From IMG/VR virus record IMGVR_UViG_3300033553_000095, positions 1 through 31,068 of that record: a DNA stretch of 31,068 nucleotides, one strand, 5' to 3'. The notes under the pieces are model-generated. The model was not told the origin of the DNA, searched no databases, and saw nothing but the letters and a program-made list of their open reading frames with translations. This DNA comes from a virus. The translations under genes and the position numbers were made by a program. Shown in pieces: positions 171 to 31,068 of the stretch; positions within the stretch are counted from its first letter, which is position 1; every line of letters begins with the position of its first letter.

Positions 171-195
171 CACACCAAAGCACACCACACCAAAG
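171..195 (+). repeat. Pentamer repeat array A, upstream of the kinase-like gene
   Basis: Five uninterrupted 5-base units of the consensus C-A-(A/C)-A-(not A): CACAC three times and CAAAG twice. The array begins directly after the stop codon of the upstream gene. It ends 14 bases before the ATG at 210, just upstream of the ribosome-binding-like GGAAAG (197-202). A TATAGT hexamer at 165-170 abuts it on the left, but no matching -35 box is visible. Confidence 0.85.
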
Positions 196-209
196 CGGAA
201 AGTTTAAAA

Positions 210-5959: not shown

Positions 5960-6634
5960 ATGTCAGAACTCTCACAGGATGGCTCTGCCCAAATAAAAAA
6001 GATCCGCACTCTCCTATGGGACGAAGGCGTGAAGTGGACTGTGCGCAGTTTTTACCTTGCTGCGACAGCTGCCGTCATCTTCATGCTAACCCCCGTCGGA
6101 GAGCAGGCCAGAGATGTCTGGAATGCTCCCACGAATGCGATTGAATCGGAATTGGAGAGCAAAGCCGATCGGCAGCGTATAGAGAAAGAGACCAAGGAGA
6201 AGCTTGATCTCCTTGATGACAAGATGGACCTGGTTCTCCAAAAAATCAGTCAACTGACTGGAGAGAACCGGGTGACGTTCCAGCCGGAGGATATGTCCTA
6301 CGTCAAGGAACCAGCCTATTTTAGAGAACCTATCATGTTGGTTCTCTTCATTGGCTACACGGAGATGGGCTCTGGCTGCATCCTCAAAGAAGAGATCCCG
6401 CAGTTCACGGACGAGAACGACGTGACACTGTCCCTGCCCCCCCGGAAACCTCGCACCCAGTTCAGCACAACAACCGTCCGGCGCCAGTATGAGCTGGATC
6501 AACCGATTGGTCTGATCCCCGGACGGACCCGAGTAAACCTCCAACTGGAGTATGTGTGCGATGGCGAAACCATCTTCGAAAACACGGATCCAGTCTTCTA
6601 CTATGCCCTGGCTGAGCGGCCCGAAGATCCGTAA
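5960..6634 (+). CDS. Membrane-anchored coiled-coil protein in the lysis region
   Basis: 224 residues. A short cytoplasmic N-terminus with basic residues (KKIR, VKW, R) precedes one transmembrane helix at about residues 30-45 (FYLAATAAVIFMLTPV). A charged helical coiled-coil region follows at about 55-97 (heptad-like ESELESKADRQRIEKE). The C-terminal 120 residues look beta-rich. This topology, one N-terminal anchor and a periplasmic coiled coil, is that of inner-membrane spanins, and N4 has its Rz/Rz1 genes in this part of the map. However, the protein is longer than usual and its C-terminal beta domain is unlike Rz. No embedded Rz1-type lipoprotein frame was evident. Spanin function is possible, not shown. 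Confidence 0.7.
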   Translation: MSELSQDGSAQIKKIRTLLWDEGVKWTVRSFYLAATAAVIFMLTPVGEQARDVWNAPTNAIESELESKADRQRIEKETKEKLDLLDDKMDLVLQKISQLTGENRVTFQPEDMSYVKEPAYFREPIMLVLFIGYTEMGSGCILKEEIPQFTDENDVTLSLPPRKPRTQFSTTTVRRQYELDQPIGLIPGRTRVNLQLEYVCDGETIFENTDPVFYYALAERPEDP

Positions 6635-6639
6635 GAATA

Positions 6640-6669
6640 ATTTGGTGTGGTGTGGTGTGATTGGGTGTA
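6640..6669 (-). repeat. Pentamer repeat array B, inverted
   Basis: Read on the minus strand, this is a run of 5-base units: TACAC and CCAAT (degenerate), then CACAC three times and CAAAT once, all in 5-base phase. The plus strand shows GTGTG units. It begins 6 bases after the stop of the coiled-coil membrane protein and lies 38 bases before the endolysin start. It is the only member of the family pointing against the direction of the genes. Confidence 0.8.
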
Positions 6670-6706: not shown

Positions 6707-7504
6707 ATGACCTCTGTAATTTTTGACATCAATCTGCTTGCGGCCATCACCGAACAGCGGGCCACCGATAATATGCGCTCCGTTCTTCTGGGCCTGATTG
6801 CAGGCGGAAAATCCAATGGGCTCGATCTGCCTCATCGATTGGTTCCCTATCTGGCACAGCTCTCCCACGAGTCCGCCGGGTTCAAATATGACCGCGAGAT
6901 CTGGGGACCCACCGCAGCTCAGAGACGCTACGACATCCGGACGGATCTCGGAAACACCCCAGAACGTGATGGAGACGGTCAGAAATATGCAGGTCACACA
7001 GCCATCCAAATCACCGGCAGATACAACACCAGCAAGTTCCGTGACTGGGTCTGGGCCTACGTGGACAAGTCGGCCCCCGACTTTGTGGATACCCCCCACC
7101 TGATGAACACAGACCCTTGGGAGGGTCTGGGTCCGATCTGGTATTGGAGCTCCCGCAACCTGAACAAGTGGGCAGACAGTGGTGAGTTCGACGTGGTCTC
7201 GAAGAAGATCAACGGCGGCTACAACGGCTATTCGGATCGCTGCCGCAGGTACACCCGGATCGGTCTGTTGTTGCTGGGATTCAATCCAAGCGACATCGCA
7301 GGCTATCAGCGGATTGCCGGTCTGAGAGTTGACGGCAGTGCCGGTCCGAAGACCCGCCGGTCGATCCACGAGGATCTGCTCAAAGTTGGTCCCCTCTCCT
7401 TCCAGGATTCGTCAAAGCAGTTTGCTGCCGCAACCAAGCAGACAAAACCCAACACCCTGATGGAGAAAATCAAAGACTTCTTCAGGTTCTTCTTCCCGTT
7501 TTAA
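6707..7504 (+). CDS. Endolysin: GH19 chitinase-like lysozyme with peptidoglycan-binding domain
   Basis: 265 residues. The N-terminal 185 residues fit glycoside hydrolase family 19. QLSHESAGF (residues 51-59) holds the candidate catalytic Glu55, DREIWGPTAAQRRY (62-75) holds a second acidic residue, Glu64, and IQITGRYN (about 101-108) is the conserved substrate-cleft segment. A short peptidoglycan-binding-like repeat follows (about 205-230, with GLRVDGSAGPKTRRSI). It would cleave the glycan strands of murein at lysis. There is no signal peptide or N-terminal anchor, so release probably needs a holin. The last 14 residues (MEKIKDFFRFFFPF) are strikingly aromatic and basic. The ribosome-binding site is weak (AGAAAG). 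N4 uses an anchored muramidase (gp61) at this map position instead. Confidence 0.88.
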   Translation: MTSVIFDINLLAAITEQRATDNMRSVLLGLIAGGKSNGLDLPHRLVPYLAQLSHESAGFKYDREIWGPTAAQRRYDIRTDLGNTPERDGDGQKYAGHTAIQITGRYNTSKFRDWVWAYVDKSAPDFVDTPHLMNTDPWEGLGPIWYWSSRNLNKWADSGEFDVVSKKINGGYNGYSDRCRRYTRIGLLLLGFNPSDIAGYQRIAGLRVDGSAGPKTRRSIHEDLLKVGPLSFQDSSKQFAAATKQTKPNTLMEKIKDFFRFFFPF

Positions 7505-10818: not shown

Positions 10819-10843
10819 CACACCACACCACATCAAACCAACC
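10819..10843 (+). repeat. Pentamer repeat array C, upstream of the gp58-like gene
   Basis: Five consecutive 5-base units: CACAC twice, CACAT, CAAAC, then the degenerate CAACC. It ends 15 bases before the ATG at 10859 and just before the AAGGAA ribosome-binding site. It follows the candidate promoter at 10785-10814. Confidence 0.85.
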
Positions 10844-10858
10844 CGCAAGGAAATGATA

Positions 10859-11197
10859 ATGTCGAGCATCCAGGAAATCGAACTGTCCATCGAAGAGGCA
10901 AAGGAAAAGATCTCTCGTCGGGACGCTGCTCTGAAGTTGAGTGGCAATCGCGAGTTCAAGAAATTGATCCTTGACGGGTACTTCAAGGAAGAGGCTTCCC
11001 GCCTTGTGTCTTTGATGGGTGATCCCGCTGCCAAAGATTACCGGGACGATATTATCATGGATGCTCAAGCCATTTCGTCCTTCCAGCAATACATGCGCCT
11101 CATCGTACAGATGGGCAATATTGCGGAAGCCGAACTGAAGGCTCACCAGGAGATCCTGGACGACGAGCGTGCAATGGACGAAGAGGTAGACATCTAA
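10859..11197 (+). CDS. Small helical head-module protein (N4 gp58 position)
   Basis: 112 residues from the ATG at 10859, chosen because AAGGAA (10847-10852) then sits 6 bases upstream. An in-frame ATG at 10853 would leave no space after it. The protein is almost entirely charged and helical, with no membrane segment or motif. It lies between portal and scaffold-like protein, and its stop overlaps the scaffold start by one base. That is the position of N4 gp58. It may help prohead assembly or be a minor head protein, but I do not recognise a family. Confidence 0.75.
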   Translation: MSSIQEIELSIEEAKEKISRRDAALKLSGNREFKKLILDGYFKEEASRLVSLMGDPAAKDYRDDIIMDAQAISSFQQYMRLIVQMGNIAEAELKAHQEILDDERAMDEEVDI

Positions 11198-12471
11198 TGG
11201 TCGACGTCAACTTCGATACCATGTCCGACGAAGACTTCCTGAATTCGAGTGTCCCGGCACCGACGGACAAGGAAGACTATTCGCATCCGGAATCCACTGG
11301 CTCCACGCTGGAGGATCGTCTTGGTTCCCCAGTGGAAGAAGAAGCCCCCTCCTCCGCACCGGCGGAAGAGGACGAAGGCTCTTCCAAGGAAGAGAGTCAC
11401 ACCACACCAAAGCAAACCAAAGCAGAAGAAACCCCTGCTGTTGCTGAGGAAGGTGCCGAAGAAGAAGACGAGGATGATGCAAGCCAGTCCGAGCAGGACG
11501 ACGAAGCATTCTCTGGAGATGCCCCCAAGAAAAAAGACCCCGATCCGGCCGAGGCTGAGAGCGCCAAGTCGGAGGCGGCAGCCGAAGATGAAGGTGCGGC
11601 AGCCGACGGCAAGGACGGGGATAAAGCTCCTATCGATTACAAGCAGGAGTACGAAAAACTGTTGGCGCCGTTTAAAGCAAACGGTCGAGAGTTCAAAGTG
11701 AACTCCCCCGATGAGGCCGTGCGTCTCATGCAGATGGGCGCCAACTATACCAAGAAGATGCAGAGCCTGGCTCCCAATCTGAAGTTGATGAAGATGTTGG
11801 ATAACAACGATCTTCTGACCGAAGACCAGGTTTCCTACATGATTGATCTCGCGCAGAAGAAGCCGGACGCAATCCAGAAGCTTCTCCACGAGAGCAAGAT
11901 CGATCCCCTTGAGATCGATGCCTCCGAGCCCGGCAACTACCAAAAGGGCAATCACAGCGTCTCCGATGAAGAGATGGCATTCCACGACGTACTGGGAGAT
12001 GTAACACAGACTTCCGGCGGCAAGGAAACCGTCCAGCACATCGACAAGACCTGGGATCAAGCCAGCAAAGCTGCCGTGTTCAAAGAACCAACGATCCTGG
12101 CGATAATCAACCAGCAGCGTGAAAATGGTGTCTACGATACCATCACCGCGGAAATTGATCGCCAAAAGACTCTCGGGATCATCCCGAACAACACACCATT
12201 CCTCGAAGCTTACAAGCTGGCTGGCGACAAGTTGCAGTCCGAGAATGCCTTCGCTCCCAAGGAACCTGAGACTCCTCAGACTCCTGCGGACACCGAAGCT
12301 CCTCAAGTGATTGAAACCCGCACAGCCACACGGAAGCCAACCGTTGCGAATGGGGAAAAGGCAAAAGCAGCTTCGCCTGCCAAGTCTACCGCAAAAACCC
12401 CGCCACAGTCATTTAACCCGTTCGAAATGTCGGACGAGCAAATCATGGCGATCACATCTCCCCAGGGCTGA
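11197..12471 (+). CDS. Acidic scaffold-like head protein (N4 gp57 position)
   Basis: 424 residues, no Cys. Residues 20-145 are an extremely acidic, low-complexity stretch rich in Glu, Asp, Ala, Ser and Pro, surely disordered. A folded helical core follows (about 150-350), including ANGREFKVNSPDEAVRLMQM, a segment seen in many phage scaffold or head-assembly proteins. The C-terminal 70 residues are again disordered (Pro, Thr, Ala, Lys) and end in a short hydrophobic patch (FNPFEMSDEQIMAI) that could bind the capsid protein. Its place right before the major capsid protein fits a scaffold. Pentamer array H lies inside the acidic stretch and is read as S-HTTPKQTK-AEE (residues 67-76). Confidence 0.8.
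   Translation: MVDVNFDTMSDEDFLNSSVPAPTDKEDYSHPESTGSTLEDRLGSPVEEEAPSSAPAEEDEGSSKEESHTTPKQTKAEETPAVAEEGAEEEDEDDASQSEQDDEAFSGDAPKKKDPDPAEAESAKSEAAAEDEGAAADGKDGDKAPIDYKQEYEKLLAPFKANGREFKVNSPDEAVRLMQMGANYTKKMQSLAPNLKLMKMLDNNDLLTEDQVSYMIDLAQKKPDAIQKLLHESKIDPLEIDASEPGNYQKGNHSVSDEEMAFHDVLGDVTQTSGGKETVQHIDKTWDQASKAAVFKEPTILAIINQQRENGVYDTITAEIDRQKTLGIIPNNTPFLEAYKLAGDKLQSENAFAPKEPETPQTPADTEAPQVIETRTATRKPTVANGEKAKAASPAKSTAKTPPQSFNPFEMSDEQIMAITSPQG
11398..11422 (+). repeat. Pentamer repeat array H, inside the scaffold-like gene
   Basis: Five perfect units with no deviation: CACAC twice, CAAAG, CAAAC, CAAAG. It lies inside the reading frame of the scaffold-like protein, in the part encoding its acidic disordered region. 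No ribosome-binding site with a start codon in a useful frame follows, so it is not an obvious leader. It is as well preserved as the best intergenic copy. Confidence 0.8.
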
Positions 12472-13732: not shown

Positions 13733-13767
13733 CACACCAAACCACATCGCACCATAGCGAAACATCC
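13733..13767 (+). repeat. Pentamer repeat array D, after the capsid terminator
   Basis: Seven 5-base steps all beginning with C: CACAC, CAAAC and CACAT match the consensus, then CGCAC, CATAG, CGAAA and CATCC are decayed but in phase. It ends 13 bases before the ATG at 13781 and just before the GAGGAAA ribosome-binding site. Confidence 0.75.
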
Positions 13768-15033: not shown

Positions 15034-15042
15034 GGCCAGCAC
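15016..15042 (+). terminator. Strong hairpin overlapping a stop codon; possible terminator
   Basis: GTGTTGGCCC at 15016-15025 pairs with GGGCCAGCAC at 15033-15042 (10 base pairs, one G-T) around a 7-base loop that contains the first two bases of the TAG stop at 15031-15033. Only two T follow, so intrinsic termination would be weak. RNA processing or protection of the 3' end is equally possible. Array E begins 3 bases later. Confidence 0.5.
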
Positions 15043-15044
15043 TT

Positions 15045-15069
15045 CACACCAAAGACCACCACACCACAT
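15045..15069 (+). repeat. Pentamer repeat array E
   Basis: Five units in phase: CACAC, CAAAG, ACCAC (decayed), CACAC, CACAT. It ends 14 bases before the ATG at 15084 and just before AAGGG. It follows the hairpin at 15016-15042 directly. Confidence 0.85.
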
Positions 15070-16292: not shown

Positions 16293-18656
16293 ATGGGAAT
16301 CTTTTCCAGCAAGACCAAGACCTATGTAAGCTCCACTGTTTACAACCTGGCCGGAGATGAAGATCTTCGGCCAGACTTCCTTAAATCGGTCATCCTTGGC
16401 ACAGTCATCAGAGGATCCAATCAGGGAATTGGTTCGGTACTGGCAGCTTCCTTGTTCAGCGGCACTGGCATGCGTCAGCGTCGTTTCTACAATTGGGCCC
16501 AGACCAACTATGATTATGGCATGCCCGAAGCCACCATAAGTGCTGCAAGAAACGTGCCTGCAGATACTGTGCGTGCTGGCATGTTGGGTGTGCTGGGTCT
16601 GGCGTCGAACCAGGAGCTGCGTGTCAGCACCGCGGTAATAGACGCAGCTGATGCAGATTATTGGGCCGAGTTCTGGGTCATCGAAAACCGTCCAGAGCTT
16701 GGTGAAGATGGTTGGTCTGCGGACTTTGACCCGGCCACGGCTGAAGTAATCATCCGAATTCCCGGCGAACCTGATGTGCGTTTGCCTGCTCCCGCCGATC
16801 TGATTTGGGGACTGAGCAACGGTCCTCTTGGTTCATCGCGCAAACTTCTGATCGCAAACTACGAGATCCTGACGCAAGATCCAGTCACGCTGAACATCAC
16901 ACAAAGCGATCCTGCTCTCTTCGTTTATCGGATGGGTTCGGGAAACGTGACCTTCGACACTCTTGGAACCAACGAGGTGACACTCGTTTCCACGTTCAAT
17001 GGCAGCAGCACGACAAAAGGCTTCTATCCTGCAATCCCCCTGCGACTGAACAACGTGTCGATCCGGGATATGCCGGACAAGTTCGACAACGTGAAGAAGG
17101 GATACAGGAAGCTGACAAGGTCTTCGATCGATGATCTGTTGGACAGCATAGAAGAGAACGACAATATCGGGGACATCGATTACTGCTTCTTGGTTCAAGG
17201 AGTAGATCTGACATCGCAGGATCTCACTGCGAAGCAGTATCTCTACACCTTTTTCAAGTCTCTGATTGATGAGCAGATTTACTCCAAGCAGGATCTCAAC
17301 GCATTCCTGGACAACACGGAAGACCAGGAAAGCAGTGTGATCCAATGGGAACGTTGGCTCACTGCGCATGATCAGAGTGAGCCAGGCAAAGAGTATCATC
17401 CCTTGCATGGGGGACTGGCGCCTCTGTTCCAGAACATAAATTCCAAGCCAAGCACGAATGAAGTCCGGGTACACAGCACTGCGCTGTCCGAATTTGATTA
17501 CCGGATCCGTTGGCAGAGCGTTACTGAAACACTGCACGTCGGGAACGCAGGCAGGTTCGACGGAGACCAGACACGTCCTCTTTTGAAGCCTGGAGAGTTC
17601 GGATTACATGCAGGCAACGACGTGCTCTTCAAAACTGGCTCCTTCAATCCAGACGGACTTGTCGGTGGGTTTATCAGCGAATTGCAGGGCATTCCGAAGA
17701 TCTTCATGCTCAAGCAGTATGCCCGGTTCCGATATTCCAAACTGGAGATCCTGGGGCTCCAGCACCGCAACTATGTGTACCAAGGTCACAGCGTCACTCT
17801 GAATGCGGCCGATGCTCTGACAAGCACGGAAGAGAAAGCTGGTGAGTCCGGTTTCCTGATCCCCCTGCACTATCCTACTTTGCAGACTATGGGACTTTTG
17901 AAGAGCACCCAGTTGAGCAGCTCCTCAAGCTATCTGGTTTTCAACACATATGTGCAGCAGAAGATCCGGTGGTATCAACGAGGTCTCTTCAAAGTCATCC
18001 TGGTCATTGCTTCGGTGGCTCTGTCTGTGGTGTTTGCTCCAGCGGGCATGGCAGCAGTGGGTATTCTGGGCACCAACATTGCAGTAGGGACTGCCATTGG
18101 CATTACGGGTGCCATGACAGCGGCCATCGTAGGCGGAGTGGTGAATGCCATCGCAGCCTTAGTTTTGACTTCCATCATTTCCAAAGCCAGCGTGAAGCTG
18201 TTTGGAGAGAAGTGGGGCGCCATCATCGGGACAATCGTGTCCTTTGTTTCTATGCAGTATGGATACGCTTACGGCTCCACAGGGACCTTCAATGTCGACT
18301 GGTCAAAGATCATGAATGTGGACAACATCATGAACCTGACCAACTCCGTATCGAACGCCTACAGTCAGTGGCTCAATGCGGACACAGCCGACATCTTTGC
18401 CTCGATGGAAGAGGTCAAGACCAACTACGAAGGCGAGCTCGAGAAGATCGAAAACATGGCAGATGAAATTCTGGGCATGACGGCGGGGATAATTGACCCT
18501 ATGATGTTAACAGACGCCTCCGAATACCTCGGAGAAAGCAGTGAGACCTTCATGGGTCGGACCCTTCTGACAGGCAGTGATATTGCCGAGTTGACCCACT
18601 CCATGATCGAGAACTTCACTGACATTTCTCTCGAGCTTCCCAAGGCAATTCGCTGA
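16293..18656 (+). CDS. Large virion protein with hydrophobic Gly/Ala segment (N4 gp52-like position)
   Basis: 787 residues. The first 560 residues look mostly beta and mixed, with a conserved-looking N-terminus (YNLAGDEDLRPDFLKS, then RRFYNWAQTNYDYGMP) shared by many podovirus structural proteins. Residues about 563-632 are strongly hydrophobic and rich in Gly, Ala, Val and Ile, enough for two or three membrane-crossing helices (VILVIASVALSVVFAP and AAIVGGVVNAIAALVLTSII). The C-terminal 150 residues are helical. Such a segment suits an ejected protein that helps open the host inner membrane during DNA entry. N4 ejects gp52, gp51 and gp50, but which of these it corresponds to is inferred from gene order. 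Confidence 0.82.
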   Translation: MGIFSSKTKTYVSSTVYNLAGDEDLRPDFLKSVILGTVIRGSNQGIGSVLAASLFSGTGMRQRRFYNWAQTNYDYGMPEATISAARNVPADTVRAGMLGVLGLASNQELRVSTAVIDAADADYWAEFWVIENRPELGEDGWSADFDPATAEVIIRIPGEPDVRLPAPADLIWGLSNGPLGSSRKLLIANYEILTQDPVTLNITQSDPALFVYRMGSGNVTFDTLGTNEVTLVSTFNGSSTTKGFYPAIPLRLNNVSIRDMPDKFDNVKKGYRKLTRSSIDDLLDSIEENDNIGDIDYCFLVQGVDLTSQDLTAKQYLYTFFKSLIDEQIYSKQDLNAFLDNTEDQESSVIQWERWLTAHDQSEPGKEYHPLHGGLAPLFQNINSKPSTNEVRVHSTALSEFDYRIRWQSVTETLHVGNAGRFDGDQTRPLLKPGEFGLHAGNDVLFKTGSFNPDGLVGGFISELQGIPKIFMLKQYARFRYSKLEILGLQHRNYVYQGHSVTLNAADALTSTEEKAGESGFLIPLHYPTLQTMGLLKSTQLSSSSSYLVFNTYVQQKIRWYQRGLFKVILVIASVALSVVFAPAGMAAVGILGTNIAVGTAIGITGAMTAAIVGGVVNAIAALVLTSIISKASVKLFGEKWGAIIGTIVSFVSMQYGYAYGSTGTFNVDWSKIMNVDNIMNLTNSVSNAYSQWLNADTADIFASMEEVKTNYEGELEKIENMADEILGMTAGIIDPMMLTDASEYLGESSETFMGRTLLTGSDIAELTHSMIENFTDISLELPKAIR

Positions 18657-18662
18657 GCCGGT

Positions 18663-18697
18663 CAAAGCGAACCACCCCATATCACAGCAACCCACAT
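18663..18697 (+). repeat. Pentamer repeat array F, decayed
   Basis: Seven 5-base steps, every one starting with C: CAAAG, CACAG and CACAT match the consensus, while CGAAC, CACCC, CATAT and CAACC deviate. It fills the gap between two virion genes and ends 22 bases before the ATG at 18720, upstream of GGAGG. Confidence 0.6.
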
Positions 18698-21325: not shown

Positions 21326-21329
21326 AGAG

Positions 21330-21364
21330 CAAACCACGTCACACCACTTCACACCAAAGCGAAC
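21330..21364 (+). repeat. Pentamer repeat array G, upstream of the virion RNA polymerase gene
   Basis: Seven 5-base steps beginning with C: CAAAC, CACAC twice and CAAAG match the consensus; CACGT, CACTT and CGAAC are decayed. Two more C-initial steps (CCATT, CCAAG) lead into the ribosome-binding site AAGGAA at 21372-21377. The ATG is at 21384. The array follows the terminator at 21292-21325. Confidence 0.8.
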
Positions 21365-21383
21365 CCATTCCAAGGAACCTTCC

Positions 21384-24300
21384 ATGTCCCAGACCACCAA
21401 TCCGTCGTTGTTCGCTTCACTGGCTCAATATGGAGCTGATGCCCCTACTGAACTGGCCATGGGCACAGAAGTGCCGGCAACGAATATGGGGTCTGCTGCG
21501 AAGAAGCCGAGCGTGCTGGCTGCCACTTCACAGAAGGCTGAAGGCGTGCAGCTGACAAGCCTGGCAAAGAAGGCATTGTTTGGGACACCGGAAGAGCAGC
21601 GCTACATTGCCACTGCTGTCCGGGATGGAAATGATCTCGCTCAGGATCCAGGTCTGCAGGACATCATGAACCTGGACGAGTTGTCCTGGGGCAACAAAAA
21701 CGGATGGGACTTGGCTCAGGCCAAGGGAAGTTTCGCTCAAGCCTACCGTGAAGTAGGTGAGCTGAAGAACCGGGAACGTACGAACACACAAGTCGCAACG
21801 GATGCAGCGATCAGCACAGGGTTGATGGCGGCCAATACGATTGCCAATGCAGGCGCTCTGGCCACCGGTGCCGTGGATGCCGTTGCTTCGGGAAGCGATG
21901 ATTACAAGCCAATCACCCCGCGCATTTCGGAAGCTCTGGGAGACTTCAATGAATGGGGCCGCAGCTTTCAGAGCGATCTGACACAGGACCGCAGAGTTCA
22001 GCACCAGATCGAAGGTGAACTGGCTGCCGCGGATTCCGAGACGGCTTACGAAGCGGATCTGGCTGAGCGTGCTGGTTCCAACAATGAATTCTCCAGAACA
22101 GTGGCACCCTGGATCCGCAAGACGGGCCGGGACTTCGGTGACGCTGTGGCCAACTATGCCGACGATCCGATCATGATGGGCGAGCTGGTGCCTGAAGGTG
22201 TTGGTTCCCTGCTCCCGATGACTGCCGGTATCAAGGCTGCAGGCAAACTTGGCGCCATGTCGAAACTCACGGCTCAAGGCATGGGCAAAAAAGAAGCGGC
22301 CGCATTTATGAAGACCAAGGAAGGTCGGGAATTGCTGGATGCCGAAGCTGTTCGTGCAGCCCCTGCTATCATGGGCGGCGTCGAGAGTGGCAGTGCCTTG
22401 GTTCAGACCCAACAGACCATCATGGGGATGGAGCCAGAAGAACTGGCAGGCACCCCGGATTACGATGCTCTGATTGCAGCAGGCAAATCCCATGAGGATG
22501 CCAAGACAGAACTGGCACAAAGCGCAGGGACAGTTGCAGCGGTCACAGCTCTGCCCGGTGCTCTGGCAGCCGGTAAGGTTGCAGCTCCCTTCGCAGCCAA
22601 ACCCCTTTCACTGGGCCGGACATCCAATGGCACTGGTTCCAGCCTCATGGCTGCCGGTCGCAATGTGGGAAGCGAAGCCGTCGAAGAAACACTTCAGGAA
22701 GCCAACGCACAAGTGGCTTCAAACATTGGTCAAAGAGAAGGAGCAGGACTTGATGTCGATCTGGATGAAGGTGTGGCCGCAGGCGCTGCACAAGGCTTTC
22801 TCGGCGGTATCGCCACAGCTGGACCCATGCAGGCTCCAGCAGCTGTGGGTGGCTCAATTCTGGAAGCTGGTCGGGTTGCCGGAAGGATTGGTGCTGCTGC
22901 CATCGATGGACGGGAGGCACAGCTTGAGCGTTCCGCTGATCGCACTTCAGGTGCAGGTTCCAGCGCCCAACAGGAAGCCGGTACTGAAATCCGTACAACC
23001 GCTGATGCCATCCTGGCAGAAGTCGCTCCAAAACAGGGCGAGGCAGACAACGCCCAATCTCAAGTCATCCGGGACACCGTTGCCAAAGCAACCTATCTCG
23101 ATGCAGACGAGGTTGAAGCTTACGCTGCTCAATTCCCTGAAGTCGAAGAGGCTCGCGCAAACAGCAAAGACGGATCGGTAGAACGGTCCGTTGCCATTCA
23201 GGCTGTGGGCAATCTGCTCAAAGACAAGGACATTGCTCCCGAAGGCAAGGCACAAGTCGCGGTCTCGGTGATCCAGTCGCTGAATGATATGCGCCGGATG
23301 GAGTCCACCGAGATGCAGGAAGCTCTTGGTTCCCTGCCGGAAGACAGCAAGCTGCGCACGGATACTGACTATCTGAACGATCAGATCAAAACGATGGCCA
23401 GCTCTGCTGCCGTGAAGGAAGCCACCAAAATCATCGAGGGCATGACACCTGAGATGGTGGCCTCTGTGCTGCAGATCGATGAGATGAAGGCCGGGAAACT
23501 GGCTCCAGAAGAGCTGGAAGCAGCTCAGAGTTTCCTGGAGATTGTTGGTAGCATCAATCCTACGGCCGCAAGCCTCGAGCAGTATGATCTGGTTCTGGAT
23601 CAAGTGGGTGGTGGCAAAGGCAAGAGCATGCTCGCCAAGTCCCTGAAGATCACACGGGACATTGCTGCCAGCTTCTTTGAAGCGGATGAAGCCAAGAAAA
23701 GAATTGAAGATCACCAAGATGCGGTGATTGAAGATCTGCCGGAGAACCAGAAGAAGGCTGCCAAAGGACGTCGCTGGGCGACAACCGACACGGTACGTCA
23801 GGACATACTGGTTGACGGCAACAGCAGGAACAACATGCCTTCCCTGACGGCACATCGTCGGACATTCTCGGAAGCTGTGGCTGCGGGACAGATGGAAGAT
23901 GCCATGGCAGCTCTGGAAAGTCTTGGCGGTTTTGCAGAAGGCATGGCCAACAAGATTGGCGCCTACAACCGATCGGCCCAGGAAGGAAAAGGCAAACCCA
24001 AGCCGTTCCAGTCCTACGGCCCATTCGGCGCGTTTCAGGACAAGACCGGGGTGTATGCAAACACCCGTGCTCCGAGCTCTGTGGCCCAGGTCTCGGAATC
24101 CTGGATCGATGCGAAGACAGTGGCAGCTCTTTACAACAATATGCTGCAAGATCCCCGAATGGGAGATGCAGTGTCTGGTCTGAAGCCCATGGAGATCCCT
24201 GACCTGGATCCATCCATCAAGGCTGCCGCGGCAAACTTGGACTTCACACCAAAGCAAAGCGACCCAACCCAAACCAAAGAACCCACACCTGTGGACGAGG

Positions 24301-27300
24301 CCGTGACAGCTCCCGTCGCTGAGCCCGCAACCGAGGAGGTTCCGGATTCCCTGGTCGATACCGGGGACACGTTCACACAGGAGACGGAAGATGAAACCCC
24401 AGGAGGAGAAGACTCTGGATCTGGAGCAGGAACTGCAGATACTGGAAGCCGAGCAGGCGTACTGGAGGACACCAAAGGTACAGCACCATCTGGAACAGAA
24501 GGAACGCAAACGCAGGACCTGCGCAAAAAAGTTCCGGTTCAAGAAGCGCAAGATGCGCAGCCTACGGTAACTCCCAAGCAAGAAGCAGCTCCGGACACAG
24601 CGACAGGGCTCAGTCTCAAGGAAGAAGCCTTGAAGGCCGAAGACGCTATTGCAGAGGCTGCCAAACCATCTTGGTTCGAAGGGCTGAAAGATCGCCTGCT
24701 GAAGAATGCCAGTGGGGTGAACCAATTCATTCAGAACTTCCGTATGCGCGAGAACGCATCGACGATGACCCAGTATGAAGATCCGGCTGCCTATCTGATG
24801 GAGAACATTGGTTCCCTGATGACAGATGAGAACGGTCTTCAGCGGGAGCTATCCGACGACGAGAGGTCTTCGGTGAACGAGATCCTGAATAAATGGGCAC
24901 CGGGCTTTTCGAACAAGTTCATGATGGAAGTCCAGAAAGCGCTCACATCTGTGCGCAACGAAGACGGTGTCAAGAAGGGCGAGAAGGCCCGAACATTGAT
25001 GACCATGCTGGATCGTGTTCCCGATGCAGGTGGCAAGGACGTGCTGAGCTACTCGAACGGGATGCCTCTGAACTTCCTGATCAAAGAGGAGAACGGATCC
25101 TACGGGGTGGAGCCAGTAGTCATCCAGGCCACACAGATGGCTTTGCTCGAGTGGATCATGAAGAACGAAAGCCGCGGTGCTCCGTTCATGAAAGACGAGG
25201 ACATCTCGAAGATGTTCGGGATGGGCCGCAATGGTGTCGTCACCGATAAGATGCGCAAACTGGCACAATCTGGCGTCAACGTCCAAAGTGCCTTGTCCGA
25301 GATTGCCACAGGTATCGAACGCCTGCTGGGCACGGAAGCCAAGTTGGATATGCCTGCCAACATGACCCAAGGCATGTTCCGCTCGATGGCGGCCACAGCT
25401 TTGGAGATTGCTGAAGTGGGTGGCATGGTCACTCTGAATACAGAGACCGTCACAGTGCCGAAGACTGCTGAACTTCCCAATGGTAAGAAGACAATGTCGA
25501 CCATCAAGGTTCCAGAGAAGTTTACTGGCAAGAAAACACTGGATGGTCTCAAAGCCATGCCGGACATTTTCACCCGCATCTTTACAGACGGTGGGGACAA
25601 GGAACGCTTCATCGGGGAGGCGCCTAAAAAGATCTCCAAGACCCAGCTGAAGAACAAGTTCGGCAAGCTCTCTGAGATGGAGCAGGGGGTTATCAAGCGA
25701 CTGCAGGACACGCCGTTCTATGTGAACAGAGCTATGGTGAGTTTCCTCGATGCTCTGGGCGATGACACGTTCAAAGATCTGCTGGGCTTCAAAGAGATGG
25801 ATCCAGCTGGATCGAACCCCAAGCATGCCACGAGTGTGGATGGCAAGAACATGTCCCTGACCCGTGGGATCGCCGGTGTCCGGGGATACCTTGCAGAGAT
25901 TGAAGCACTTGGTTCCTCGGTAGACGAGACCCCGGTGTTCTTTTCTTGGATGATCTCCAAAGTGGGACGTCTGCAACAGCAAGGTCCGATCACGCCTCAA
26001 GGTGACAAGATCATGCGTGAAATGATCATGGCCACGAATGCGACGATCAATCTGACAGATACGACTTCGGAAGATATGAAGAACTTCTGGCTGGCAGTGG
26101 CCCAGTCGGCAGATATCTCTGTGGAGAAAAAGAACCACACCAAGTCGATCTCAGAGGTTCAGGACCTGATGGCATCGCAGGAAGGCTTTGCTCCGGCACT
26201 GGAGATTTTGAGCGAGTGGCTCGACAAGGCTGACGGTGAACCAATGACGTCCGAAGAGCGGACCGAGTTCGCAGATGCTGTGCGCAACGCCAAGGATGCC
26301 AGCGGAGATCCTGTCAAGGTGACCGAGAAGCTGTTGCACGCTCTGGTCACAGTGGCCCGCATGCAGCAAGCCAAAGCGCTTGGTGGGGAGACCGCTTCGC
26401 AGTTCAAGACTGCTCTGGCTCTGGAAGCGGATGGCAAGACCGATGGTCCGGTGAACGCAATGATCCACATGGGTGTGGGTGAGTTCACTGCTGATGAGCT
26501 GAAACGCTATGCCAAGGGTGGCCTGTTCTTCACCGATCAGGAAACGACTTTGAACGACCACATCGAGAATAACGACAAGGAAGATCTTTACCAGGTGGCA
26601 GCCAGGATCTTTGAAAGGAGCTTGGCAGAAAACTTGGCTGCGATGACCGGGGATGATCAGAAGATTGCATCTTCTTTGATGCGTGTCATGGACACCTTCC
26701 TGCCACATTTCTCTTCTGGGATCACAGTGTCCGATGAAGGCACGACCTTCGATCCTGACGTGAAGCGTAATATCACCAAGAACCCTCTGACTGTGTTCCT
26801 CTATGGATCCAGCGAAGGCGGTATTGCAGGCAAGATCGTGAGCGCAATGTTGGAAGAGTTCCACGTAGCTCTGAACGATCTGGCACAAGGACAGCAAGAC
26901 AGCACCTATACAGACTGGAGAAGCCACCCCAAGTTGGGACGCAAGAGCCCTGACGGAACCTACTTGGTTCAGGACATGATCAATCTGCTGGGCGGAAATG
27001 CAAAATCTCCGGCAGCCCAGTCATTGGCCAAGGCTCTCACAGATCCCACCAATAAAGCCGCTGAGCTGAACTCAGAAGCTATCAAAACGATGGAAGAGAA
27101 TGTTCTGGAGTATTTCGGGAACACTCTGACTGCGGCTGTGGATGAAGCGACAGGCAGCCTTCGAAAGAACATGGTGTTCACCCAGAACCTGGCTTCGGTA
27201 CAGACAGCCATTTTCCAGGACGTCTTCAACCAGGCTCTGAAAGAACGCCAAGAGAAGCGCTTGAGTGATGGCACTCTGCGCAAAGGCGATATCCTGTCCG

Positions 27301-30300
27301 AGAAAGAGCTTCAGGAAGTCTTCGAGGAGACGATGAAGATCGCTCCGATCTACGAGACAGATGCCCAGGAGTTCCACATTTCTGCTGGTTCCAAATACAG
27401 TTCGAGCACGGATGTGTCCAAGTCCCTCTCCGGCAAACTGGCGTCTCAGGCAACATTGCCTTCGCCGTCGGATGCCAGCGTCAAGGTCTCGCCTTACATG
27501 ACCATCGGCACCGGTGACGGTCGTATGATGCTGAACATCTATGCCAATGCAGACGGATCTCTGGATGCGTCCCTGGCCGTGTTCGATGGCGTGGAGATGT
27601 CGATCAACAACGTCACAGCCGGATCCAAGCAGGTGAATAAGGGATCCTTTGATGGCTGGATGGACAGCAACATCTACCGTTCCCTGGCAAACGGGTTCAA
27701 TCAGATGGTTCCATTCATGTCGGAAAAGGAGTTCGACAAGCTGTCCAAAGACACCAAGATGAAGCTTGGTCGTGCCATGGGCTTCGATAAAGGTCAGCCC
27801 GGTACACGCAAAGGTCTCGCCAGCATTCAGCGAGATGTGGAACTGATGGCGGATAAGTCAGAGGCTCGCAAGAAGGCGATCAAGCGGATGCACAGCTGGA
27901 CCGATCACATGGCATCCGGCATGGCTGCCCATGAGAACAAAGGCGAAGTGGCCGGTATCGGGAATCTGATGGAGTTCCAGGCAACTGCTGACCGGATGAA
28001 TGAGATCTATCGTGAAGAGCTCGCCAAGATCGAGGCGAGCAAGAAAGAGAGCAAAGAACGCCCGACGATTGAAAAACCGAACCCGGATCTGGAAAAGAAG
28101 ATCCAGGACTTCGGTACAGAAGTGCCAAACCATCCTGGCGTAACAGCCATGAATGGCGGCCACCTGTTTGCAATCCTTCCGACTGCGAACCAGGAACTCA
28201 AAGATGCTTTGAGCAAGACCGGGAACTTGTCTGACACAGCCTATTTCTTCGGTACACCGGAAGCATTGAGCCAGATGCGGGATGACATGTATTCCGATCT
28301 GCCGAAGCGGGAGATCCAACTGGGGCAAACCCATGTTGGCGCCAATGTTGTGTTCATCAGCAACGCATCGTCAGAGACAATCCTGCACGAGATGCTGCAT
28401 GCCCAAACGAGCCGCACCTTGGTGGATCACTATAATGATCCGGACAACTCCCCCGATCACATCAAGAGCGCCGTGAAGCGTCTTGAGCTACTGGGTCGGG
28501 AAGTCTTTTCCATGGATCCGGCATCGCTGCCGCAAAAGAACCAGGCAGAAGCGCTGGACACTCTGAAGACAGTTCTGAGAAACATGCCCGACGATCCTGC
28601 TGGGCGGTTGTCGGAACTGATCAGCTGGACCTTGACGAACCAGAACCTGATTGAGCTGAACAGCAAGATGAAGGTACGGAACCGGTTGATACTTGCTGGA
28701 CGGGCTGTGCTGAAAGCTCTCAAGGATCTCTTGGGTCTGTCGTCTGTTCCCGGTGATACCATCTTCTCGAACATCCGGTTCAACACGGAAATCCTCATGG
28801 CACGTCCCAAAGAGACTGTGCTGGCGGAAGGGGACGTGAGAACTGACACTGTTCTGGATCAGGTCTTCGGGGATGACGTCAGACTGAAGCGTATCGAGCG
28901 GCGTTTCATGGACCGGTTGTCTGCCCATCTGGATGCGCAGCGTGAACCAAACGAGACCAAGGAACAGAAGATCATCAAGAAGCGTGACGTTGCGAAGCTC
29001 AAGCTGATGTCCACGAAAGCAGCCGAGCATGCGATCCACCAAGGCTTCTCGATGAACCTGAGAGAGAGCCAGGCATTCAAAGCGGTCCATGCTGCGATGA
29101 TGAGTGGCATGCCGATGGATGCGTCAACCACACGTTTGGCAAACCGTTTGTATGGCCATGTTCTGAAGAACGTGAGTGTCGACTCTTTCCTGGAAGCTGA
29201 AGGGCTGACCCAGGAAACAGCGGATACCAACGACATTGCGATGGCAACACGTCGTCTGTCTGCTCTGACCGGGGATGCTGGACTGCGCACAACTGCGGAC
29301 GGCCGCACAGATCTGTTGGCCACATTCGTGTCACTGGCTCTGGTGGACGATACCTTCCGCAAAGTGGTGGAGAAGATCGATGCTCCCAAGGATGTGGAGC
29401 TGAAGTGGAACTCGGTCGACGATGCTCTCAGAAGCCTGGGTCAAACCGTGGTCAACCTTCTGATGCGGATGTCGCTGACCAGACTGAAGCAGCCCAAGAA
29501 GGTCGGGGCTCAGCTGGACGTACTGGCAGACACCCTTTCCGAAGTTCAGGGAGAGCGTCGCTTCATTGCCTCGTTCCTGGAGCTGCGTCTCATGGATCGG
29601 GCCGAAGGCTATGTGGCAGGGAAAGTGGCCAGAGGCAGCGAAAAAGCTGTGGCGAGCCTGCAAAAGACACGGGAGCGTTACATCGCAGCCAACAAGAACC
29701 GGTTGGTGACTGGCGCCTTGGGTGCTGCAGAACTGGTGGCATCCTTTGGTTCAGCGAAGACATCTGCTGATGCGGTTGAAGGTCTGACGACCATGTTGAA
29801 CCACACACCCAAGATGGCAAGTCTGCGGTCCTTGATGAATGACCTGAAAGGTATGACGGCTTCCAATGCGGATCTGATGCGACTGATCAACCCGGTTAAG
29901 GCCATGATTGATGCTATCCGTCAGGACTATCGGGAGAACATCCCGGTTCATCTGGCCAATGCGTTCAACCGCAAACTGACCAAACAGGAATGGTCCCGTT
30001 TGTTCACAGCCATTGGCCGTGCTGATGTGTTGGCTCTGGGCCGTCAGAAGGCACTGGAACTGTTTGCCAAGCCAGATGAGGTGGCTCAGGCTATCGCAGC
30101 TGAAGAAGAGGTCCTGGCAGGGCTGTCCGGGCCTACGGCGAACATCTACAAAGCCAAGGCGAAAGCCCTGGCCGAGTACATGGTCAACCGCAAGGTCACT
30201 TCGAGGAACCTTCTGCGCAATGCAGAAGCGATCGCCAATCTCTATGGGGAGACCAGAACACCCAACATCCAGAACGCCGGCCCATTGATCGCATCGATCG

Positions 30301-31068
30301 ACCGGCTGACGTCTCTCTATGCGCTGGACAAGCTGGACGACCAGACCAAGAAGACTCTCAAGGAGCTGGCCGAGAAGGAACCAGATGGGATGAAGACCCT
30401 GTCCGGCTACCATGCCAACACCCGTCAGATGGAGATTGACCGGATCGGTGATGGCCGGTCGGAAGATACGGAAATGGCGACCAACAACGGATGGAAAGGC
30501 TATGTGCCTTCTACCATTCAGGAAGGGACGTCCCTAATCGTGGCGGATGACACGGATCACGCTGAGCTGGTGAAGAAAGGCTACACCCGTGTTGGGAAAT
30601 ATCTTGGCGACAAGAACGAAAACAGCAAAGGAACCAGGAGCTACTATCGGTCCTCGGTTTCTGGAAGAAATGCGTTTCGTCAGGGTGTGGCTCAGACGGT
30701 TCATGCCACTTATCAGGGGGTGGATGCCAGGACCGGTGTTTCCAAGACTGGGGACATGGCCGGTGTGCTGGTGGGAACTGCGGTCAAATATGCGTCCCGC
30801 AGGAGAGCCAATGATCTGACAGCTGGTCGTGTGGATGGACTTACCGCGGGGAACTATCTGCTGCCGATTTACAATCAGGATGGCAAGGTTGTGGCTTATG
30901 AGCGTCCGATGGATCCAGAAGTGCTGGTTGGGCTCGATCGGGATACGCACCTGGGTCGTATGCTGGGTGTCTGGTCGGGTCGTATTCTGGAAGAGAACGA
31001 GGCTGATACGTTCAACAAGACCTTGGTGGAGACCCTGAAGAAGATCTACGACGAGCAGACCGGACCCA
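21384..31068 (+). CDS. Virion-encapsidated RNA polymerase (N4 gp50-like), 3' end outside the window
   Basis: Open for 3,228 codons to the right edge; N4's protein has about 3,500. The start has AAGGAA 6 bases upstream. The N-terminal region (1 to about 950) is helical and Ala/Gly-rich. An acidic Pro/Thr/Glu-rich linker follows (about 953-1090). The catalytic core of a single-subunit T7-type RNA polymerase then shows KVGRLQQQGPITPQGDK with Gly1528-Arg1529 (T/DxxGR motif), LALEADG with Asp1683 (motif A), RNITKNPLTVFLYG with Arg1795, Lys1799, Tyr1807 and Gly1808 (motif B), and LAVFDGVE with Asp2068 (motif C). Further on, ETILHEMLHA (His2335, Glu2336, His2339) and a later SELISWTLTN (Glu2411) look like a zinc metallopeptidase. 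The rest is helical. No Cys occurs. In N4 this enzyme is packaged, injected, and transcribes early genes from single-stranded hairpin promoters. Confidence 0.96.
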   Translation, partial: MSQTTNPSLFASLAQYGADAPTELAMGTEVPATNMGSAAKKPSVLAATSQKAEGVQLTSLAKKALFGTPEEQRYIATAVRDGNDLAQDPGLQDIMNLDELSWGNKNGWDLAQAKGSFAQAYREVGELKNRERTNTQVATDAAISTGLMAANTIANAGALATGAVDAVASGSDDYKPITPRISEALGDFNEWGRSFQSDLTQDRRVQHQIEGELAAADSETAYEADLAERAGSNNEFSRTVAPWIRKTGRDFGDAVANYADDPIMMGELVPEGVGSLLPMTAGIKAAGKLGAMSKLTAQGMGKKEAAAFMKTKEGRELLDAEAVRAAPAIMGGVESGSALVQTQQTIMGMEPEELAGTPDYDALIAAGKSHEDAKTELAQSAGTVAAVTALPGALAAGKVAAPFAAKPLSLGRTSNGTGSSLMAAGRNVGSEAVEETLQEANAQVASNIGQREGAGLDVDLDEGVAAGAAQGFLGGIATAGPMQAPAAVGGSILEAGRVAGRIGAAAIDGREAQLERSADRTSGAGSSAQQEAGTEIRTTADAILAEVAPKQGEADNAQSQVIRDTVAKATYLDADEVEAYAAQFPEVEEARANSKDGSVERSVAIQAVGNLLKDKDIAPEGKAQVAVSVIQSLNDMRRMESTEMQEALGSLPEDSKLRTDTDYLNDQIKTMASSAAVKEATKIIEGMTPEMVASVLQIDEMKAGKLAPEELEAAQSFLEIVGSINPTAASLEQYDLVLDQVGGGKGKSMLAKSLKITRDIAASFFEADEAKKRIEDHQDAVIEDLPENQKKAAKGRRWATTDTVRQDILVDGNSRNNMPSLTAHRRTFSEAVAAGQMEDAMAALESLGGFAEGMANKIGAYNRSAQEGKGKPKPFQSYGPFGAFQDKTGVYANTRAPSSVAQVSESWIDAKTVAALYNNMLQDPRMGDAVSGLKPMEIPDLDPSIKAAAANLDFTPKQSDPTQTKEPTPVDEAVTAPVAEPATEEVPDSLVDTGDTFTQETEDETPGGEDSGSGAGTADTGSRAGVLEDTKGTAPSGTEGTQTQDLRKKVPVQEAQDAQPTVTPKQEAAPDTATGLSLKEEALKAEDAIAEAAKPSWFEGLKDRLLKNASGVNQFIQNFRMRENASTMTQYEDPAAYLMENIGSLMTDENGLQRELSDDERSSVNEILNKWAPGFSNKFMMEVQKALTSVRNEDGVKKGEKARTLMTMLDRVPDAGGKDVLSYSNGMPLNFLIKEENGSYGVEPVVIQATQMALLEWIMKNESRGAPFMKDEDISKMFGMGRNGVVTDKMRKLAQSGVNVQSALSEIATGIERLLGTEAKLDMPANMTQGMFRSMAATALEIAEVGGMVTLNTETVTVPKTAELPNGKKTMSTIKVPEKFTGKKTLDGLKAMPDIFTRIFTDGGDKERFIGEAPKKISKTQLKNKFGKLSEMEQGVIKRLQDTPFYVNRAMVSFLDALGDDTFKDLLGFKEMDPAGSNPKHATSVDGKNMSLTRGIAGVRGYLAEIEALGSSVDETPVFFSWMISKVGRLQQQGPITPQGDKIMREMIMATNATINLTDTTSEDMKNFWLAVAQSADISVEKKNHTKSISEVQDLMASQEGFAPALEILSEWLDKADGEPMTSEERTEFADAVRNAKDASGDPVKVTEKLLHALVTVARMQQAKALGGETASQFKTALALEADGKTDGPVNAMIHMGVGEFTADELKRYAKGGLFFTDQETTLNDHIENNDKEDLYQVAARIFERSLAENLAAMTGDDQKIASSLMRVMDTFLPHFSSGITVSDEGTTFDPDVKRNITKNPLTVFLYGSSEGGIAGKIVSAMLEEFHVALNDLAQGQQDSTYTDWRSHPKLGRKSPDGTYLVQDMINLLGGNAKSPAAQSLAKALTDPTNKAAELNSEAIKTMEENVLEYFGNTLTAAVDEATGSLRKNMVFTQNLASVQTAIFQDVFNQALKERQEKRLSDGTLRKGDILSEKELQEVFEETMKIAPIYETDAQEFHISAGSKYSSSTDVSKSLSGKLASQATLPSPSDASVKVSPYMTIGTGDGRMMLNIYANADGSLDASLAVFDGVEMSINNVTAGSKQVNKGSFDGWMDSNIYRSLANGFNQMVPFMSEKEFDKLSKDTKMKLGRAMGFDKGQPGTRKGLASIQRDVELMADKSEARKKAIKRMHSWTDHMASGMAAHENKGEVAGIGNLMEFQATADRMNEIYREELAKIEASKKESKERPTIEKPNPDLEKKIQDFGTEVPNHPGVTAMNGGHLFAILPTANQELKDALSKTGNLSDTAYFFGTPEALSQMRDDMYSDLPKREIQLGQTHVGANVVFISNASSETILHEMLHAQTSRTLVDHYNDPDNSPDHIKSAVKRLELLGREVFSMDPASLPQKNQAEALDTLKTVLRNMPDDPAGRLSELISWTLTNQNLIELNSKMKVRNRLILAGRAVLKALKDLLGLSSVPGDTIFSNIRFNTEILMARPKETVLAEGDVRTDTVLDQVFGDDVRLKRIERRFMDRLSAHLDAQREPNETKEQKIIKKRDVAKLKLMSTKAAEHAIHQGFSMNLRESQAFKAVHAAMMSGMPMDASTTRLANRLYGHVLKNVSVDSFLEAEGLTQETADTNDIAMATRRLSALTGDAGLRTTADGRTDLLATFVSLALVDDTFRKVVEKIDAPKDVELKWNSVDDALRSLGQTVVNLLMRMSLTRLKQPKKVGAQLDVLADTLSEVQGERRFIASFLELRLMDRAEGYVAGKVARGSEKAVASLQKTRERYIAANKNRLVTGALGAAELVASFGSAKTSADAVEGLTTMLNHTPKMASLRSLMNDLKGMTASNADLMRLINPVKAMIDAIRQDYRENIPVHLANAFNRKLTKQEWSRLFTAIGRADVLALGRQKALELFAKPDEVAQAIAAEEEVLAGLSGPTANIYKAKAKALAEYMVNRKVTSRNLLRNAEAIANLYGETRTPNIQNAGPLIASIDRLTSLYALDKLDDQTKKTLKELAEKEPDGMKTLSGYHANTRQMEIDRIGDGRSEDTEMATNNGWKGYVPSTIQEGTSLIVADDTDHAELVKKGYTRVGKYLGDKNENSKGTRSYYRSSVSGRNAFRQGVAQTVHATYQGVDARTGVSKTGDMAGVLVGTAVKYASRRRANDLTAGRVDGLTAGNYLLPIYNQDGKVVAYERPMDPEVLVGLDRDTHLGRMLGVWSGRILEENEADTFNKTLVETLKKIYDEQTGP
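24245..24279 (+). repeat. Pentamer repeat array I, inside the polymerase gene
   Basis: Seven 5-base steps, five of them matching the consensus: CACAC, CAAAG twice, then CGACC and CAACC (decayed), CAAAC, CAAAG. It is read as F-TPKQSDPTQTKE (from about residue 954), at the start of the acidic disordered linker before the polymerase core. It shares the T-P-K-Q reading with array H because both use the same frame. Confidence 0.75.

Follow-up and report, generated by a model that had tools for sequence, protein, structure and literature searches.

The window analyzed here, the whole 31,068-nt stretch of viral DNA, corresponds to the late module of a phage of the N4-like type (Schitoviridae), encoding terminase, portal, capsid and virion RNA polymerase (vRNAP). 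The markers of that family, namely the giant vRNAP, the N4-type portal, the capsid and the terminase, are all present (phrog_2206, 1216, 1357 and 38, respectively), while DNA similarity of the window to isolates was limited to one 92-nt stretch. The vRNAP gene probably starts at ATG 21384, directly after one of the arrays described below, rather than at the upstream ATG 21288. The relevant features are the following:

171-196, plus strand: array in a gap, 13 nt before ATG 210
6641-6668, minus strand: array between the gene at 5960-6634 and the chitinase/endolysin-like gene at 6707
10819-10847, plus strand: array in the gap from the portal gene to the next gene
11398-11424, plus strand: array within the phrog_2120 gene at 11197-12471, in its poorly conserved N-terminal portion
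13733-13761, plus strand: array in the gap that follows the major capsid gene
15037-15068, plus strand: array interrupted by a phase slip, in the gap that precedes the gene taken from 15075
18663-18696, plus strand: array in the gap after the gene at 16293-18656
21328-21365, plus strand: array lying 18 nt ahead of ATG 21384, the likely vRNAP start
21384-31067, plus strand: virion RNA polymerase gene (phrog_2206), which carries the reported array and runs off the record end
24245-24279, plus strand: the reported array, seven CAxAx pentamers inside the vRNAP linker (residues ~954-966, peptide FTPKQSDPTQTKE)

An earlier note, made from the letters alone, had described the last of these features as a pentamer array inside the vRNAP gene, and three lines of evidence bear this out. 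The array consists of seven head-to-tail pentamers (CACAC, CAAAG, CAAAG, CGACC, CAACC, CAAAC and CAAAG) of the form C-[A/G]-x-[A/C]-[C/G], and under a period-5 model it scores 41.6 bits, compared to 24.0 bits for the best of 100 window shuffles. The model (a PWM) was trained on the window arrays, and an independent test is provided by a 16-nt pattern probe, which matches 14 sites in the window and a mean of 0.44 sites (maximum 2) in shuffles. Furthermore, when the underlying peptide was recoded with synonymous codons, 0 of 5000 recodings reached the array score, the best attaining 36.7, and a coding coincidence was rejected on this basis. The array at 24245-24279 is confirmed as real and non-random.

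It is also the strongest of a family. A repeat search and a period-5 scan identified about nine arrays over the window, eight of which beat the best of 100 shuffles, whereas the ninth (15037-15068) is split by the phase slip. The shared unit is C-A-x-A-x, with position 3 being A or C and position 5 being C, G or T, and it is restricted likewise in every relative. The second intragenic array, at 11398, gave the same result upon synonymous recoding (0 of 5000). A weaker CAxAx run is found inside the major capsid gene (window:13148-13169), and similar runs occur in the capsid genes of relatives (L036:4047-4065, L214:2305-2328, L276:4013-4036 and L376:10635), including an array-less Dyella contig. 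Such runs may be coding coincidences or seeds for array evolution.

The location assigned to the array, a domain boundary tolerant of insertion, is likewise supported. Matches to phrog_2206 flank it on both sides, with the core match beginning near residue 1221, and the array falls in the linker between the N-terminal part and this core. The absence of an evident internal translation start holds as well. Comparison of the boundary in related polymerases, which the earlier note had called for, revealed arrays in the same N-terminal linker of three of the four near-complete array-bearing genomes (G005, equivalent to residue 956; G004, ~1020; G006, ~1021 and 1060), and none in the vRNAP linker of the fourth, G001. 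The outcome that the earlier note had named as a refutation, namely close relatives lacking any array at this boundary, was thus not observed. The linker arrays of G004, G005 and G006 are read in three different frames. Thus, it is the DNA pattern and not the peptide that recurs, and the linker is simply where it is tolerated. A second common vRNAP array site lies near residues 545-549 in three relatives. Recoding of two of the relatives' vRNAP arrays yielded less extreme results (19 of 5000 for the G004 array at 41830 and 212 of 5000 for the G005 array at 36305). The vRNAP gene also contains a 12-nt tandem repeat of 3.3 copies (window:30951-30990, CTGGGTCGTATG), which is unrelated to the pentamers.

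Across six records, 53 of 75 arrays scoring at least 24 bits are located in gaps, even though gaps comprise 11.8% of the sequence (p 2e-32). Within gaps between co-directional genes, 36 arrays are in the sense orientation and 8 are antisense. Among the sense arrays, 28 of 36 stop 10-27 nt short of the next start codon, placing them directly 5' of the ribosome-binding site, with the proviso that genes were called by a simple in-house caller and single array-to-start distances may be off. The gap from the portal to the next gene carries an array in all nine of the array-clade loci examined, albeit flipped in G005. G001 also has an array in the gap equivalent to 21328-21365. One of the eight antisense gap arrays keeps its position in the window and G001, as the counterpart of the 6641-6668 gap in G001 carries an array at 37039-37064 that is likewise antisense to the G001 genes. 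Many other arrays lie deep inside coding genes. From the terminase to the portal (G001:37039-44800), the arrays are mostly antisense to the late genes, as is the one at window:6641-6668, a hint that this region is transcribed in the opposite direction or that binding here ignores orientation. Since arrays of this type also occupy most long intergenic gaps as well as other sites, in both orientations, the earlier idea of a pause of the ribosome or polymerase between domains of a giant protein is not supported; pausing of ribosomes was rejected, as the arrays are mostly intergenic and some are antisense.

The distribution of the arrays among N4-like phages is narrow. At a threshold of at least 22 bits, the near-complete genomes contain 19 (G001), 19 (G004), 11 (G005) and 14 (G006) arrays, whereas G010, Erwinia phage S6 and the part of phage Pastis that was searched, taken as array-less controls, have none. 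Similarly, the array genomes show more lag-5 repetition than their shuffles do, which is not the case for the controls. A scan of viral contigs with the N-terminal vRNAP protein returned no match and was replaced by scans with the portal, capsid and terminase. Of the 80 relatives recovered from viral contigs by their portal, arrays are confined to the three closest; the capsid and terminase searches extended the array survey to some two dozen loci, and the matches of a blind pattern scan of the viral collection included two more relatives of the array clade. The records are of metagenomic origin and may be incomplete. Bacterial genome contigs contained few N4-like capsid loci, none of these had arrays of at least 24 bits, and no host-resident copy was seen. 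Also noted were unrelated viral contigs (L120, L134, L137, L142, L154, L159 and L166) with at least two separate period-5 arrays each, built of AAACC, ACACC and AGCAA types of units and in some cases spaced through several kb, which could be other systems with pentamer sites.

When the gene content of array genomes was compared to that of the controls, the genes common to the former and missing from the latter included a ParA-type ATPase and a small protein encoded directly after it. A clear ParA orthologue (E <= 1e-80) is present in 4 of 4 near-complete array-bearing genomes versus 0 of 38 N4-like records without arrays; in two of the latter, ParA gave weak and partial matches. The ParA search itself brought up one more array-bearing record, L368. 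The relatives' ParA proteins exceed the gathering thresholds of Pfam VirC1, AAA_31 and CbiA and match NCBIfam ParA_partition at 5e-29, which is below its cut-off; the gene encodes a Walker-type ParA ATPase in these relatives, as opposed to the window. A Rep_3 initiator is encoded near parA, with two Pfam domains above cut-off; Rep3_N occurs in G004, G005, G006 and the record of L368, and in 0 of 38 array-less records. G001 has no Rep_3 gene and instead a different possible initiator beside its par genes. No par gene is present in the 31-kb window, as the record ends before any par locus; judging from the relatives, the par locus of the window's own phage would lie outside the record. A further small protein with weak Pfam similarity to RuvC/DUF460, encoded at G001:9200-9706 as well as in G004, G005 and G006, is absent from the three controls and is possibly a clade-specific resolvase.

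The small protein following ParA (encoded at 62961-63212 in G004) is predicted to be a ribbon-helix-helix (RHH) DNA-binding protein whose N-terminal tail is flexible. The Pfam RHH_10 match of the phage proteins has an E value of 0.002, below the gathering score. The structural model, which is shallow, consists of b-a-a elements with a low-confidence N-tail, and its Foldseek matches are the RHH proteins MatP, Arc, CopG and ParG, with ParG at rank 2 and none reaching E 0.001. The protein also aligns with plasmid homologues, with which it has an N-terminal motif and helix pair in common. A PDB sequence search with the RHH protein of the phage contig L370, introduced below, produced no match.

Arrays are found ~60-90 nt upstream of parA in G001, G004, G006 and L368, all antisense to parA, and none is found upstream of parA in G005. 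These regions are candidate repeat centromeres of the type Ib kind. The closest relatives of the phage ParA are from alphaproteobacterial plasmids, and in an unbiased period-5 scan the strongest stretch was just upstream of parA in 7 of 7 such plasmids. A further connection comes from L370, the closest relative outside the N4-like phages, a 45.8-kb contig of a non-N4 tailed phage with the ParA-RHH-Rep_3 gene set and a parA that is 63% identical. Upstream of this parA are 24 pentamers ending 12 nt before the gene, many of them CACAT, CACAA or CAAAT; they follow the C-A-x-A-x scheme of the N4-like arrays and form a single, centromere-like array. Another contig with the cassette, L371, has the region upstream of parA cut off. 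Overall, loci with the phage-like RHH subfamily (plasmids and the unrelated phage) have period-5 DNA upstream of parA in 11 of 11 cases, compared to 0 of 9 for plasmids in which a similar ParA is followed by an RHH protein of another subfamily, a natural control in which the subfamily split was drawn after inspecting the sequences. A third kind of small protein is encoded by Aurantimonas phage AmM-1 (L395), where the period-5 signal is only weak. The plasmid relatives showed no CAxAx arrays of the phage type near parA, their period-5 units being different. As most plasmid units are different from the phage unit, the link between the arrays and the RHH protein rests upon the period, the position, the RHH subfamily and the L370 case. 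Period-5 centromere-like regions lie upstream of parA in the alphaproteobacterial plasmids L360-L366, L383, L384 and L389. The plasmid units upstream of parA are GCATG, GGTAC, GATAC or ATCAT and are apparently tied to one RHH subfamily, and the last strand residue (K or R) seems to track the unit type.

Here, then, is an array family with non-random placement that co-occurs with a ParA-RHH pair, as well as period-5 DNA upstream of parA in relatives sharing the RHH subfamily. It is likely, in our view, that the arrays are dispersed sites for the ParA-linked RHH protein, serving segregation of a phage-plasmid and/or the silencing of lytic genes. We infer binding of the arrays by the RHH protein, a plasmid state of the phage and gene silencing as a consequence of binding. 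Each pentamer would be one box, and 4-8 tandem boxes would constitute one site. Most likely, the clade keeps its genome as a plasmid prophage segregated by the ParA-RHH pair, usually together with the Rep_3 initiator. From sites before ribosome-binding sites and in coding linkers, the RHH protein may coat the prophage and block lytic transcription in a stoperator-like fashion, and the scattered arrays may also serve as extra segregation anchors. An array in the 10-kb vRNAP gene would be tolerated where the protein is a disordered linker. The earlier suggestion of a protein or ssDNA binding site is therefore favored for its protein option, whereas ssDNA is unneeded, since the linked RHH family binds duplex DNA. 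With even odds, we can further imagine that the centromere-binding protein of a captured plasmid cassette became a genome-wide prophage silencer, its arrays having spread to many operon starts and to coding linkers, that of vRNAP included, and that it now both segregates and represses a lineage widely taken to be lytic.

Several other explanations deserve consideration. There is a negligible chance that the arrays are low-complexity coding or slippage products, i.e. functionless microsatellite drift in T/P/K/Q-rich linkers. The intragenic arrays do reside in disordered linkers, which tolerate repeats, but no synonymous recoding out of 5000 reproduces the reported array, the same linker is used in different frames, the units are degenerate alike in all arrays rather than identical, most arrays are intergenic, and array presence matches par presence. 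An RNA-level element, with CA-rich period-5 leaders in mRNA that either recruit a TRAP-like protein or, being unstructured, enhance translation, would account for the position of most arrays, directly ahead of the Shine-Dalgarno on the coding strand, and a period of 5 resembles TRAP sites. We still find it quite improbable given the eight antisense gap arrays, including the one that the window and G001 share at the same position, the many arrays deep in coding genes, and the plasmid period-5 arrays upstream of parA next to an RHH gene. When read on the opposite strand, the unit becomes G[GCA]T[GT]N, a GGY/NN-like pentanucleotide repeat reminiscent of VIPR guide RNAs (vrRNAs), with which the 5-nt period agrees and GGY-NN is matched by GGTGT units (PMC13142463). 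Yet here there are mostly 4-8 repeats in scattered single arrays rather than 9-16 of the GGY/NN form, the variable positions are restricted (position 3 is almost only A/C and position 5 almost never A), and GCT/GAT units break GGY; this extremely improbable alternative was rejected on repeat number, variability and layout.

Of more weight, albeit unlikely, is a purely dispersed centromere, in which RHH binding only helps ParA to move a 65-75 kb prophage plasmid and silences nothing. It agrees with the arrays upstream of parA and with the period-5 centromere-like DNA of plasmids, and scattered centromere repeats are known from other partition systems (PMC5016525). Conversely, one region is enough in the plasmid relatives, segregation needs neither the 36:8 sense bias nor the 10-27 nt spacing before start codons, and the parA-adjacent arrays are antisense to parA. 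The sense bias could itself reflect tolerance, at least in part, with CA-rich RNA or T/P/K/Q peptides being harmless, rather than polar silencing. Within the reading that we prefer, dispersed RHH sites with segregation and/or silencing, binding by the RHH protein is the better supported step, and silencing may or may not accompany partition. If true, part of the N4-like family would be phage-plasmids by virtue of a ParA-RHH-Rep_3 cassette with dispersed sites, and a lytic lineage would have gained lysogeny control by spreading the binding sites of one protein, even through coding DNA. Period-5 arrays would provide a DNA signature for recognizing phages of this kind, along with a family of centromeres on alphaproteobacterial plasmids, as well as a defined RHH-site system for studying how partition proteins silence genes.

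Among the RHH proteins of plasmid partition, the boxes are 7-bp heptads for omega and tetramers with spacers for ParG, whereas the putative boxes of the array clade are 5 nt long, and its 11-19 arrays are scattered over a phage genome, some in coding sequence. In other respects, the clade resembles type Ib partition (ParF-ParG-parH of TP228, delta-omega-parS of pSM19035 and pCXC100; PMC5016525), having a ParA-type ATPase and a small predicted RHH protein whose N-terminal tail is flexible. In type Ib systems, the centromere consists of short direct (and inverted) repeats preceding the par operon, and the RHH proteins that bind it double as repressors; pSM19035 has three separate parS sites (PMC5016525). 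A similar centromere and a similar dual role would apply here. The stoperators of mycobacteriophages L5/Bxb1 are asymmetric sites, numbering more than 20 and scattered over the genome in short gaps between genes, that mostly point along transcription and silence the prophage, and some L5 relatives are extrachromosomal prophages with parABS (PMC9283540, PMC6550527). The arrays are likewise numerous, dispersed, mainly intergenic (53/75) and oriented with transcription (36 vs 8). However, L5 stoperators are single 13-mers bound by a monomeric HTH-containing repressor and not by a partition protein, whereas the sites of the clade are tandem pentamers with a presumed RHH partition protein. By analogy, the arrays may work like L5 stoperators without being stoperators of the L5 site type. 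KorB of RK2 (PMC11790492) is also a partition-family protein exerting long-range gene silencing through operator sites, but it is a CTP-dependent ParB-type clamp with OB sites rather than an RHH protein, and it belongs to a plasmid rather than a phage. The VIPR vrRNAs (PMC13142463) share only a phage origin and the pentanucleotide period, since they have 9-16 repeats with hypervariable NN at a single locus with an invariable 3' tail. N4-like viruses are generally considered strictly lytic, and members bearing an integrase have been reported only recently (PMC10654107); text searches of a collection of open-access papers found none linking Schitoviridae to ParA-type phage-plasmids. Thus, type Ib partition and stoperators are both known, while dispersed and partly intragenic pentamer sites for an RHH partition protein in N4-like phages appear to be new.
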